Below are positions 4,898 through 50,169 of a stretch of DNA of 53,047 nt, piece by piece. The stretch lies in NCBI GenBank assembly GCA_016929595.1, contig JAFGIN010000087.1, positions 1 to 53,047 on the forward strand. Reading direction: 5' to 3'. The translations under genes and the position numbers were made by a program. The stretch comes from Chitinispirillaceae bacterium. Its GTDB lineage: Bacteria; Fibrobacterota; Chitinivibrionia; Chitinivibrionales; Chitinispirillaceae. Every line of letters begins with the position of its first letter. Within the stretch, counting starts at the first letter, position 1. The notes beneath the pieces are model-generated. The model saw only the letters and a program-made list of their open reading frames with translations. It did not search any database and was not told where the DNA came from.

Positions 4898-5179
4898 AGA
4901 TACGAGCAGCTGATTCCGGATGGAAGTAGAGTACGTGTATAGGTCATGCGGCTCGATTTGTGTCGTGGTGCTGATATGTTTGTGGCACTGAAATAACTCA
5001 CTAAAAGTGGTTGAAAAAGCGGATGTATAATCACAGGTTTATTCCTCTGGCGATTTTTATCCACTTCGGCTTCGCTCAGTGCATCACCCGGTCTTTCTCA
5101 ACTCGACCCATCGACAGGCTCATGGACCACAGGCCCGGCGTACTGCCTGTAAGAGAAGGTGAAAGCAGAAAAACGGAAG
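4898..5179. other. Intergenic region with common short repeats
   Basis: No gene is seen. Around 5060-5135 it contains sequence of the widespread dispersed type (CTTCGGCTTCGCTCAGTG and TCGACAGGCTCATGGACC), similar in style to 25-55 (GACTCCGCTCGACGACC) and 28980-28996 (TTCGGCAGGCTCAGTGCA). Confidence 0.4.
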
Positions 5180-5297
5180 TTTTAAACTCCCCTTCTCTGA
5201 TAGGAGAAGGGTTGGGGGTTGAGGTTAAAATGTGAAGCAAAAGGAGTTAGATTCGGGATTAACAAATAATTAAACTATCCCGTTTAGTGAGTTCTGA
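5180..5297 (+). repeat. Dispersed repeat family R1, copy A
   Basis: Starts with an inverted repeat (CTCCCCTTCTCTGATAGGAG and onward, pairing CCTTCTC with GAGAAGG), continues through a G-rich stretch, and ends in TTTAGTGAGTTCTGA. The same arrangement recurs at 38018-38135 and, for the right half, at 48676-48774, always ending AGTGAGTTCTGA. Confidence 0.75.
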
Positions 5298-5338
5298 TGA
5301 TACGAGCCGTGGTAAAGATGTGTGATTGCGTAATAAAG

Positions 5339-37820: not shown

Positions 37821-38017
37821 AAAGCCGCACGGTTTTCATTAATAATGTTTCCCCTCCAGGGAAATAGATATGTCGTTTAACTCTTTTGCTACAATAATAA
37901 ATGCTCTACAAGCATTTATTCATTACAATAGCATCGTAGCCAAAATACTGATTCCTCACAATGCCGGAGTCAAGTATGGGTAAAGACCAGCTGCCAGAGA
38001 AGGGTGAATAAACAGAG

Positions 38018-38135
38018 TTTTAAACTCCCCATCTCTGATAGGAGAAGGGGTTGGGGGGGTGAGGAAAAAAATGCGCAAAAGAAGTGAAACCTGAGATTAA
38101 CAGACAATCAAACAATCCTGTTTAGTGAGTTCTGA
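38018..38135 (+). repeat. Dispersed repeat family R1, copy B
   Basis: Same architecture as 5180-5297: TTTTAAACTCCCC, the CTCTGATAGGAGAAGGGG hairpin, a G-rich run, AAAATGCG, then TTTAGTGAGTTCTGA. Confidence 0.75.
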
Positions 38136-38364
38136 TCAGTATCCCCGTATTCTCCGGATTTTTGTAAAAGGAGATATCTCTTTACTGTCATTTTAAAGCT
38201 GATTTCATCACAAGGGTATTTTTCCATCCCGAGACCCGACCGTAAGGGAGGGCTTCTTCACATACCCTGCCTCAGTCATTATCACCGGATAATATCAAAT
38301 TGCTTTTTAAAAACAAAAGTTCCTTACCACATTTTGTGTTAAAATAGGCTTCTTCTCATTTCAA

Positions 38365-46606: not shown

Positions 46607-48082
46607 TTAACGTTTTTTATCCATTTGTGAGGCCTTTTCGATTGCTGAAAACAGCGCACTTGCCTTATGAACTGTCTCATCATACTCTTTGGAAGGCACG
46701 GAGTCAGCTACAACTCCGGCACCGGCCTGTACACTGGCAATGCCGTTGTTGTAAACAATAGTGCGAATGACAATACATGTATTCATGTTCCCTTTGAAAT
46801 CGAAATAGCCAAGAGCTCCTCCGTAAAGCCCTCTTTTTACGATCTCAACTTCATCAATAATTTCCATTGCCCTGATTTTAGGCGCACCACTGAGTGTTCC
46901 GGCAGGAAAGCATGAGTAAAGCGCATCGAACAGGTCTTTGTCGGAACGCAATGTTCCTTTCACATTACTTACAATATGAATGACATGTGAATACTTTTCC
47001 GTATGCATCATATCTTCAACGCGTACAGATCCATACTCACTGACCCGGCCGATATCATTCCGACCAAGATCTACAAGCATCACGTGTTCTGCCCGCTCTT
47101 TGGGATCATTTGTCAATTCCTTTATCAGGCGCTCATCTTCTTCATCATTTATACCTCTGCGGATAGTGCCTGCGATCGGACGACATTCAAGCACACCATC
47201 ATTGAGACGCACCAGCATCTCCGGAGATGCACCAATTATCGACGTTGCGCCGGCAGAAAAATAATACATGTACGGTGATGGGTTGACAAAACGAAGTATG
47301 CGGTAGAGGTCGAACGGGTCGGCATCAACTTCAACAGAAAAACGCTGTGATGGAACAACCTGGAAAATGTCCCCCGCCCTTATATACTCCTTACACTTCT
47401 CAACAGCAGCTTCATATGCTTCACGTGAAGTGTTGGATACCGGTTTACCTTTTGTCGAAACTGAAATAGGTTTGTGCTTCGTGGGACGATTCATCGCATC
47501 TTCCATCCGATCGATTTCTTCACAAGCCAGGTTGTAGCCAGTGTCAGGATCAGGAGTCTGATCGAGGATAACATTACTTATAAGAATGATGTGATGATCC
47601 CTGTTATCAAAAACAACCAGGTTTTTGTAAAACCCGAAAAAGATATCATCCAGCGCATCCTTTTTTGGATTTTTATCCGGTATGTTCTCCCACAAACGTA
47701 TTGAATCATAAGTAAAGAACCCGATCGCCCCTCCACAGAATTGCGGCTGACCGGCAATGGTCGGGCATTTGTATTTTTTAAGTTCCTCCCGCAGAGCACC
47801 AATCGGATCTCTGTTTCCTGACCTGGTCATAGAACCGGAAATAGACCACTCACTTCCCCTTGTTGAGAACGTACAGAACGGCTCCGCCCCAAGTATGGAG
47901 TAGCGCGCAACTGATTCCACCCCCGAAACACTTTCCAGCAGAAAGCTGTTCTTTTTCCCGTTGAACAGTTTCATCCATACCGAAACGGGAGTCTCCGTAT
48001 CCGCCAGAATAGTTTTATATACCGGAATCGCCGTATAGTGCTGCTGCAATAACTCTTTTACTTCATCTAACGAAGGTTCCAT
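46607..48082 (-). CDS. trpE: Anthranilate synthase component I
   Basis: 491 residues. Chorismate-binding fold: SFLLESVSG near residue 47 (tryptophan feedback site), the C-terminal [48 protein letters not shown] split across strands, [16 protein letters not shown] and GAGVVADS. It makes anthranilate from chorismate with TrpG. Start ATG 48082. The upstream 900 bases have no leader peptide with tandem Trp codons, so attenuation of the classic type is not evident. Confidence 0.95.
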
Positions 48083-48302
48083 TTCAAAATGCCTTCCGCT
48101 TTTTATATGGTTGTTTTCGATCTGCAGGGTACTAGAACCGGGAAATACGTATTACTTTGATCGTTTTGTAAGGACTTTTATCAGCTAATCAAATAATGCT
48201 CATCTAACCAATTCTACCTTTAGAATATAAATAGAGAGAGGACGATTCAGCAAACCACATGGCAGTTACTTATTTATGGTTTTTTTAAGAGTTTTTAGTT
48301 TT
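48083..48302. other. Region upstream of trpE
   Basis: 220 bases, AT-rich. A TACTAGAACC half-site resembling a TrpR operator lies near 48130, but the other half is missing. No leader peptide with Trp codons. Confidence 0.35.
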
Positions 48303-48548
48303 TATGGACCGCAAAAGCGGGAAGTGGGGGTACGTGGCGATTTTTTTACGTCGAAAGAGTGGTGTCCCCGCACTTTGATGCCAAAGACGTCGTCGGATTG
48401 AGTTATTCTCGTGTTGTCCACTGGAAAAGACATAATACCTCTTTCAGAAAATTATGACTTTTATATACAATCGTTTTCAACTGTAAGATTAGAACTCATT
48501 TAAAATGGGAACCAAGCAGATGTAAATCGCAAGTTCATTTCCATCGTT

Positions 48549-48613
48549 TTTATAAACCTCATCCCCCAACCCCTTCTCCTATCTCTCCTATCAGAGAAAG
48601 GGAGTTTAAAAAC
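48549..48613 (-). repeat. R1-type G/C-rich hairpin in reverse orientation
   Basis: ACCTCATCCCCCAACCCCTT, then CTCCTATCAGAGAAAGGGAG. This is the left part of the R1 repeat inverted. It lies within the 674-base element. Confidence 0.6.
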
Positions 48614-48675
48614 ATCTCTTTTTCTGAATTCTCCCTTATCTGGAATTTCTTTGCATAAAGCTTCGAGTGCAGGCA

Positions 48676-48774
48676 GGAGAAGGAAGGGGCGGGGGTGATG
48701 TTAAAATGCGAAGTATAAGGAGTTAAATGTGTGATCTAACAAACGCACAAACCATCAACTATAGTGAGTTCTGA
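48676..48774 (+). repeat. Dispersed repeat family R1, right part, copy C
   Basis: GGGCGGGGGTGATGTTAAAA, then GCGAAGTATAAGGAGTTAAA and, after a diverged stretch, TATAGTGAGTTCTGA. Shares the right half of copies A (5180) and B (38018). Confidence 0.7.
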
Positions 48775-48776
48775 AC

Positions 48777-48983
48777 ATGTCCACATCAGTAAACCTGATT
48801 CGTACGATCAGGTTCAATGTAAAGATTCTAGTAACTTGCGAACCAGTGGGGGAAGGCGAAATTACTGCAGATGGACACCAATCCGGCGACACCTTCTGCT
48901 TCAAAGTGTGGGATCACAAGACTCACGACGGCGTAATACTCTGCCAAACCCACACTTCCCGCTTTTGCGGTCCATATATATAA
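48777..48983 (+). CDS. Possible small protein, or read-through of the repeat end
   Basis: 68 codons from ATG 48777 to a stop at 48981. It contains VKILVTCEPVGEGEITADGH and a Cys/His-rich end with TSRFCGPYI. The DNA of its last ~25 codons is the right inverted repeat, and the left inverted repeat, read on the other strand, encodes a related TPTSRFCGP. So either this is a small gene of which the left end is a decayed inverted copy, or coding appearance is accidental. No ribosome-binding site. Low confidence. Confidence 0.25.
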   Translation: MSTSVNLIRTIRFNVKILVTCEPVGEGEITADGHQSGDTFCFKVWDHKTHDGVILCQTHTSRFCGPYI

Positions 48984-49005
48984 AACAGGAGAAAGGAGAA
49001 AAGAA

Positions 49006-50169
49006 TCAGGCGCGAAGTGCTTCATCCATAGTAAACAGTTGATTTTCAGAGTCTGCAACGAGAAACAGTGTATTTCTATAGGGTTGAACACAGTCTCGTC
49101 CGTGCCATACACGTAAAGGAGAGACTAGAATGCAGCCGCGTGACCCATCAAAGCGGAAGATATCCTTTTCCTGCAATTCGTTATACGATCCGGGAAGGCG
49201 CAACCGTTTTTTGCTGAGGGTACGAAAAAGACAATGTTTTGCAGGTGCACACGATTGACGTACTGCAACGGCAATATCGCTCATTACGTGTCGGGCATTG
49301 ATTTCGATTACTGGTGCAAGTTTCAGTTCATTTTTTTCCCGGTACACTATTGAATCAAATCCCAGAGTTCCAAAATAGCCGGTTTTCACTACTTCAAGAG
49401 CTGCGTCTTGCACTTTTTCTTCCAGCTTATCTTTCCATTGATCTAATACAGGATCGTGAGGAGCCAGATAAATTCCGTGAAAGGTACCCTTACTGTTTGT
49501 CATCGCGCGACAATGCCTGAACATCGAAATGTTTCCACTCCGGTTAATTGTGCAGACAGAAGAGAAATCGTATACCTTTTCACACCAGGGTTCAACTGCA
49601 GCGCCACCGTGCTGAAACATACAATTGAGAGATGCCTTCTTCAGATCATCATCTGTGTTGATGTGGTAGAACCCGAATCCGGAGTTCCCGAAATCCGGCT
49701 TGATTACAACCGGGAAACGGGAGCGTAATCTGCTGCAGGAGCTGATAACCTGTTCGACATTTGAACAATATGCACTGTCAGGAATGCCTGTTGAATATCT
49801 TTGAGCGATGTCATTACAGAATTTTCTGGAATTTACCATCTTTACACATTCAGTTGATGGCGCTGCGCACTTCGCTCCCAGTTTCGAGAGCCGCTCTATT
49901 GAAATCTGATTCCATCCCCAGGCAACACCCTCCATACCGTTACAATCATCTCCTTGATAGTAAGGTGTAGCGGTCATGATATCGTATCGCTTCAGATAAC
50001 TCCAGTACGATTCGTCAATAGCTACATCAAGAAGAATACGATCTGAAAAGTTACCCAGAGGAGCAAAAAGAACGGTCATTTCTGATGCCGGTCTCTGCAG
50101 CGAAGAAACGATATTGTCGCCTAACTCGAGGTCAAACAGTGCGTTAAAATAGTACAGCTTATTTTTCAA
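49006..50169 (-). CDS. ATP-grasp domain protein
   Basis: 387 residues, TTG start overlapping the upstream kinase stop (TTGA). ATP-grasp fold: RFPVVIKPDFGNSGFGFYHI (ATP-binding lysine and glycine loop, about residues 156-176) and the metal-binding EINARHVMSDIAVAVRQ (about 310-326). The N-terminal part (about 1-150) has no recognised domain; it includes WGWNQISIERLSKLGAKCAAP, reminiscent of preATP-grasp regions of peptide-ligase-like enzymes. It would ligate an acid to an amine, but the substrates are not evident. It is downstream of and coupled to the histidine kinase, an uncommon pairing. Confidence 0.8.
   Translation of the reverse strand: MKNKLYYFNALFDLELGDNIVSSLQRPASEMTVLFAPLGNFSDRILLDVAIDESYWSYLKRYDIMTATPYYQGDDCNGMEGVAWGWNQISIERLSKLGAKCAAPSTECVKMVNSRKFCNDIAQRYSTGIPDSAYCSNVEQVISSCSRLRSRFPVVIKPDFGNSGFGFYHINTDDDLKKASLNCMFQHGGAAVEPWCEKVYDFSSVCTINRSGNISMFRHCRAMTNSKGTFHGIYLAPHDPVLDQWKDKLEEKVQDAALEVVKTGYFGTLGFDSIVYREKNELKLAPVIEINARHVMSDIAVAVRQSCAPAKHCLFRTLSKKRLRLPGSYNELQEKDIFRFDGSRGCILVSPLRVWHGRDCVQPYRNTLFLVADSENQLFTMDEALRA

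Follow-up and report, generated by a model that had tools for sequence, protein, structure and literature searches.

Anatomy of the element upstream of trpE

The element described here is located, within the window (the whole stretch of 53,047 nucleotides that was analysed), between trpE (46607-48082) and an open reading frame (49006-50169) showing a weak match to the ATP-grasp family. Since it lies 221 bp upstream of the trpE start codon, it may occupy the trpE leader region. Its two ends are formed by a 24-base tip, TATGGACCGCAAAAGCGGGAAGTG, present in exactly inverted form at 48303-48326 and 48953-48976, with a TA at both outer extremities (48303-48304 and 48975-48976). The preliminary description of this DNA had reported perfect inverted ends, TA at their tips and, within both arms, a CCGC-AAAA-GCGG hairpin; all three are indeed there. 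The surrounding inverted pair, 48294-48331 / 48948-48985, is 38 nt long and 87% complementary. Exactly two sites in the window match a 21-base core of the tip with up to 3 mismatches, and two or more such sites were found in 0 of 100 shuffles, so that the inverted pair is not a product of chance. The arms had also been described as diverged beyond 24 bases: the exact match does end there, but the arms are still 75% identical over about 107 bp, and the 24-base tips are the best-conserved portion of a repeat of about 100 bp, here called repeat A. The features of the element are the following:

48303-48402, plus strand: left terminal A repeat of the AAGTGGGGG subtype, its head facing outward (match to the A covariance model at 9.9e-30, this copy being one of the training members of the model)
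48309-48320, plus strand: terminal hairpin CCGC-AAAA-GCGG of the left arm, read from the sequence; the stem covaries across copies
48322-48375, plus strand: second stem-loop of the left arm, AAGTGGGG...CCGCACTT, with one unpaired position
48403-48490, no strand: left interior of the A-A element, unalignable with the interiors of other units
48491-48772, no strand: nested R1 repeat, 282 bp, with imperfect inverted ends AGAACTCA...TGAGTTCT
48773-48876, no strand: right interior of the A-A element, unalignable with the interiors of other units
48877-48976, minus strand: right terminal A repeat of the AAGTGTGGG subtype, its head facing outward (match to the A covariance model at 4.5e-32, this copy also being a training member)
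48904-48957, minus strand: second stem-loop of the right arm, AAGTGTGG...CCACACTT
48959-48970, minus strand: terminal hairpin CCGC-AAAA-GCGG of the right arm, read from the sequence; the stem covaries across copies

As previously stated, no transposase is contained within the element: the 68-aa ORF at 48777-48983, which includes the right arm, has no Pfam or NCBIfam match. A coding reading of this ORF was rejected, because its 18 protein matches in the same genome (itself included) track the DNA repeat, 8 of the 18 show an internal stop, and no family is matched. The Rfam scan of the window produced no matches at gathering scores, and a relaxed search of 48200-49100 a single chance-level one (17.2 bits, the gathering score being 61.7), outside the element.

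The R1 sequence noticed earlier inside the element corresponds to the 282-bp block listed above. By subtracting it, the 674 bp of the window unit turn into 392 bp, similar to the 350, 383 and 421 bp of the other units from the same genome. The proposed nested insertion is thus supported, and R1 very probably inserted into the interior of an A-A element. R1 is a second dispersed repeat, with a palindromic core rich in CCCC/GGGG, and partial copies of it exist. Other pieces are found in the window near 5158-5298 and 37994-38138, and a 228-bp relative lies on contig C12 (L003:1510-1737).

Fold, genomic setting and distribution of repeat A

In the 6.6-Mb source genome, 34 matches to A were found at E<1e-8 by using a covariance model built from 12 aligned copies, including both window copies. 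Three sets derived from these matches are used below. The set of 36 copies also comprises C156:13360 (2.6e-7) and C223:32916 (2.8e-4), which complete pairs; the set of 35, used for hairpin, pseudoknot and TA counts, is made of the 34 and C223:32916; the set of 40 placements, used for gene context, is made of the 34 and six weaker copies, with pair members counted separately. Matches up to E=10 are 63; those not counted in the 36 include antisense readings, loop-expanded copies and additional weak ones.

The consensus of A starts with TATGGAC, continues with the terminal hairpin and a second, long stem-loop, and ends about TCGCCGGA; conservation among 12 close copies fades near +100. Each A is composed of a 4-bp hairpin and a longer second stem, and the two stems were evaluated on 31 matches aligned to the model. 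Two-sided changes were seen in 9 of the 13 modelled pairs, the paired cells were 95.7% (87.2% after shuffling) and the covariation score was 0.249 (0.098 after shuffling); none of 500 shuffles reached any of these values, in an alignment which, being fitted to the structure, favours the fold. Further pair types, one of the five covariation measures, were equalled by 10 of the 500 shuffles. By shifting the partner by 1-3 columns, pairing drops to 36-57%. In 10 of the 31 matches, the second stem is open at its outermost pair.

The terminal stems were also read without any alignment in the 35 copies: 13 are CCGC/GCGG, 8 CTGC/GCAG, 4 CGCC/GGCG and 3 TCGC/GCGA, with one T-G intermediate. Leaving out the degenerate L110 and five copies with an extended head, misread by the simple scan, the hairpin is perfectly paired in 28 of 29 copies, by four stem sequences. 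The fold of A is under selection, its stems being kept by compensatory changes. Conserved yet switching stems suggest recognition of the folded strand. A pseudoknot between the second loop and the tail seemed plausible on inspection, and was discarded after testing: the mean pairing of each loop with its own tail was 15.1, against 15.8 (sd 0.44) for swapped ones, and 277 of 300 swaps were at least as good.

Some copies depart from the consensus. Five of them (L092, L096, L097, L105 and L106) form a subgroup with about 30 extra bases in the head, which could form a further hairpin; a longer common tail, whose differences look by eye synonymous in one frame, is found in some of these and in L094. 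In L031, L033, L043, L046 and L048 (contigs C60, C143, C157, C157 and C90, respectively), tandem arrays are found where the loop of the second stem is expected; the array units within A are often 7 bases long, such as GAATTAT or GGGTGAA, and are followed in several cases by the 3' half of A. A minisatellite within a MITE is reported from Porphyromonas (PMC4596501).

Repeat A is intergenic. None of the 40 placements falls within a convincing gene; the only ORFs overlapped, by 5 of them, are short (110 aa or less). The neighbouring genes are in tandem in 16 cases, convergent in 9 and divergent in 7, the remaining 8 contexts being unassigned. In the tandem contexts A is oriented as the genes in 6 cases and opposite to them in 10, and this lack of a consistent orientation argues against a simple terminator role. 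No gene family is shared among the neighbours of A, beyond one pair at 33% identity.

A covariance search of the phylum with a second model (E<=0.001) detected A in 3 of 167 genomes: the source genome, G014, which is of the same family and has 3 copies, and G032, which is of the same order and has 1. Three of these four foreign copies (two in G014 and the one in G032) belong to the training set of this second model; the remaining G014 copy lies outside it. The model from the source genome alone, which had first revealed A in G014 and G032 and contained none of their copies, matches 4 of 41 genomes at E<=0.01, among them G014 (two places, 1.2e-4 and 4.9e-4) and G032 (6.4e-5); the fourth, G029 at E=0.01, was taken as chance. 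A was not found in G007, a congener of the carrier G014, and its distribution across the phylum is patchy. A search for the exact tip pattern in genome_contigs (257 Gb) gave one match, in a Polyangia MAG, where about 2 are expected by chance from 19 fixed bases, and none in viral contigs. No description of repeat A was recognised in the portion of the literature that was covered.

Paired units and solo copies

Six pairs of A lie close together among the 36 copies, all of them inverted and none direct. The close pairs expected are 0.13 under random placement, and 0.5 if placement is confined to intergenic DNA, assumed to be 13% of the genome; the largest numbers observed in 5000 random runs were 3 and 4, respectively. 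Four pairs face head-out, with TA at both tips: the window unit (674 bp, contig C155) and those on contigs C156 (383 bp), C90 (350 bp) and C2 (421 bp). Compared together with its flanks, the left window copy is 85% identical to that of C90 and 82% identical to that of C156. Two inverted pairs, on C88 (L121) and C223 (L110), face head-in, the reverse of the usual unit. C110 carries what looks like a shortened unit: it measures 140 bp, its second end is truncated and neither tip has TA.

Between C156 and C90, homology (69% over 382 bp) runs through both ends and the interior, so that the A-A pair is a unit at these two loci. Two copies of G014 align similarly, over 271 bp at 78%, and one of them is a head-out pair of 279 bp. 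The window interior does not align with the interiors of other units. When the two 100-base ends of each unit were aligned with each other, the alignment succeeded for the window (score 46.0) and C2 (16.5); the scores of C156 and C90 (-1.5 and -6.0) were no better than those of shuffled sequences (-6.1 and -6.4, sd 4.1). The ends of these two units, which are of different subtypes, are recognised as A by the covariance model only, and their lack of resemblance by plain alignment slightly lowers our confidence in the reading as a mobile element.

Solo copies are 23 of the 36, and a filter-free covariance search found no partner for them at E<=0.001. Near the solo copy of C27 there is a weak head-out candidate partner (8.9 bits, E=2.0), and three solo copies lie, on their tail side, less than about 400 bp from a contig end, where a partner could be missing. 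Single ends within a longer gene family had been indicated in the preliminary description as evidence against its reading: single ends do occur, but they are structured repeats lying between genes rather than pieces of a gene family. Related solo copies have an identical head and lose similarity at differing tail lengths: at about +101 for L069/L071, between +129 and +140 for L094/L098 (78% identical), at +155 for L103/L104 (91%) and at +158 for L097/L105 (93%). Either independent truncation or one-ended spread would produce such variable tails; a plain two-ended transposon does not predict them, nor the predominance of solo copies. A TA stands before the head in 28 of 35 copies, compared with a background of 7.9%, and its presence there and at the tips is consistent with insertion at TA and duplication of the TA target. 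The empty sites that the preliminary description had suggested looking for were not seen, and the relatives searched included no genome listed under the same genus.

Possible mobilisation and relation to known repeats

Enzymes possibly responsible for the spread of A were searched by family. In the source genome, which is 95% complete, no match to PF13358 (DDE_3) was found at E<=0.001. TA flanks by themselves do not define the IS630/mariner family, and the assignment to it made in the preliminary description is therefore unsupported, while the MITE-like character (a gene-less element with inverted ends and TA at its tips) had been largely well judged. Matches to Y1_Tnp are 4 in the source genome and 14 in G014 and G032 together (two of the 14 overlap). 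An A-like end was found at none of these 18 loci, fetched with flanks of up to about 1.5 kb, some of which ended at contig ends. An inverted repeat lies on both sides of the Y1_Tnp match at 8 of the 18 loci, seven of them in G014 and G032, and these repeats differ in sequence from A. The flanking inverted repeats of these seven (L136, L138, L140-L142, L144 and L145), of which TTGGGGACGGGGTCAAAAATTA is an example, resemble published TIRtrons. Of 77 ORFs neighbouring A, 71 were scanned, with no transposase among the matches listed (25 of 74 Pfam families, in a draft assembly), and in the draft source genome no gene was found to lie between two A ends. An attC site, an IS200/IS605 end and a ribozyme were weighed informally, by their general features, and not retained; 0 of the 18 fetched Y1_Tnp loci carry A.

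The locus is probably best explained by a non-autonomous miniature mobile element of the REPIN/MITE kind, with structured ends, moved in trans and hosting a nested R1. Two structured A repeats of about 100 bp, inverted and with TA at their outer tips, would constitute one non-coding element, copied in trans by an enzyme encoded elsewhere, and possibly lost by now. Recognition in folded, single-stranded form has been proposed for the ends of REPIN/REP and of IS200/IS605, and the enzyme may have recognised those of A in the same way. R1 would have arrived after the A-A element was formed, and solo copies may be truncated or partnerless remnants, or one-ended products.

Alternatively, the A repeat of about 100 bp could be a functional and mobile unit by itself, i.e. 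a dispersed structured RNA or a REP-like intergenic signal, inverted pairs being secondary. This is suggested by the prevalence of solo copies, by conservation fading at about +100 among the 12 close copies, by the only 101 bp or so in common between L069 and L071, and by a terminal hairpin perfectly paired in nearly all copies in spite of four stem sequences. It is nevertheless an unlikely explanation: homology extends over both ends and the interior for C156/C90 and over 271 bp for the two G014 copies, all four head-out pairs of the source genome have TA at both outer tips, orientation to genes is not consistent, and no Rfam family reaches its gathering score in the window.

If the A-A pair is a mobile element, as we favour, two specific origins may be considered. 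A MITE inserted at TA by a DDE transposase of IS630/Tc1-mariner type would account for the TA found at both tips of the four head-out pairs and before 28 of 35 heads, and is made very improbable by the lack of PF13358 matches in a genome 95% complete, by the single end of most counted copies and by the compensated tip hairpins, which we would not expect in ends read as duplex DNA. It is equally doubtful that A represents the TIRs of a TIRtron, moved by a RAYT-like Y1 transposase (TIRYT). TIRs are described as moderately abundant families of single, dimeric or grouped elements, some with a GGGGWSAS motif (PMC3733652); some A copies read, by eye, GGGGACAC or GGGGTCAC on the reverse strand, and flanking inverted repeats are present at 8 of the 18 Y1_Tnp loci. 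Those repeats, however, have other sequences, and an A-like end is absent from all 18 loci of the three genomes, which also leaves the link through the motif unsupported.

A more radical reading, quite unlikely in our opinion, is that the ends are recognised by shape and not by sequence, that a single end is enough to spread, and that no known RAYT, IS200 or DDE partner is involved. Behind it is the observation that paired changes have taken the terminal stem through at least four sequences, with the fold and the TA flank constant; if true, A would be either a mobile structured RNA or a single-strand transposition system of a new sort. Under the favoured explanation, A seems to represent a new family within a well-known class of genomic hitchhikers devoid of genes, with hairpin ends unusually well preserved, and adds a lineage-restricted family to the miniature elements. 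As its ends show compensatory hairpin evolution, A offers a natural test of whether the small repeats of bacteria are recognised in folded, single-stranded form, and its pairs, its solo copies with fixed head and variable tail and its nested repeat could reveal how such elements spread and decay without an enzyme of their own.

Several known systems share features with A. Like the TIRs of TIRtrons/TIRYTs, as described in PMC3733652, its ends are long and partly self-complementary, occur singly and as dimers, and have in some copies a GGGG-type motif; unlike them, they were found to flank no Y1/RAYT gene at the loci inspected in the three genomes. For REPINs, inverted REP doublets have been proposed as the replicating unit, and singlets as remnants (PMC3116915). 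A is likewise a palindromic, extragenic repeat, with inverted doublets as the apparent unit and singlets also present. The proportions differ: in the SBW25 genome 61% of REPs are reported to be in doublets and 18% singlets (PMC3116915), whereas A singlets outnumber doublets, the over-representation of inverted doublets being common to both. A also differs from REPINs in having ends of about 100 bp with two stem-loops, in place of short REPs, and TA at the tips. By eye, it has neither the GTAG tag nor a CGTC beside the terminal palindrome, its conserved head being TATGGAC; where CGTC is found, in many copies, it lies within the second loop. Moreover, no RAYT is flanked by A, the 4 Y1_Tnp matches of the source genome having no A-like end in the fetched flanks.

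The A-A element is short, non-coding and delimited by terminal inverted repeats (in C156 and C90, alike by the covariance model only), and, as in MITEs in general, multiple dispersed copies exist, of A and, at C156 and C90, of the whole homologous unit. In contrast with bacterial MITEs, most counted copies of A have one end only, and no parent IS was found. The element resembles those described in bacteria, such as NEMIS, ERIC, RUP and Nezha, in being small, non-coding, intergenic, foldable and delimited by inverted ends (PMC3733652), and is distinguished from them by terminal repeats of about 100 bp, compared with the 15-30 bp given in the same source, and by the compensated hairpins that these repeats contain.
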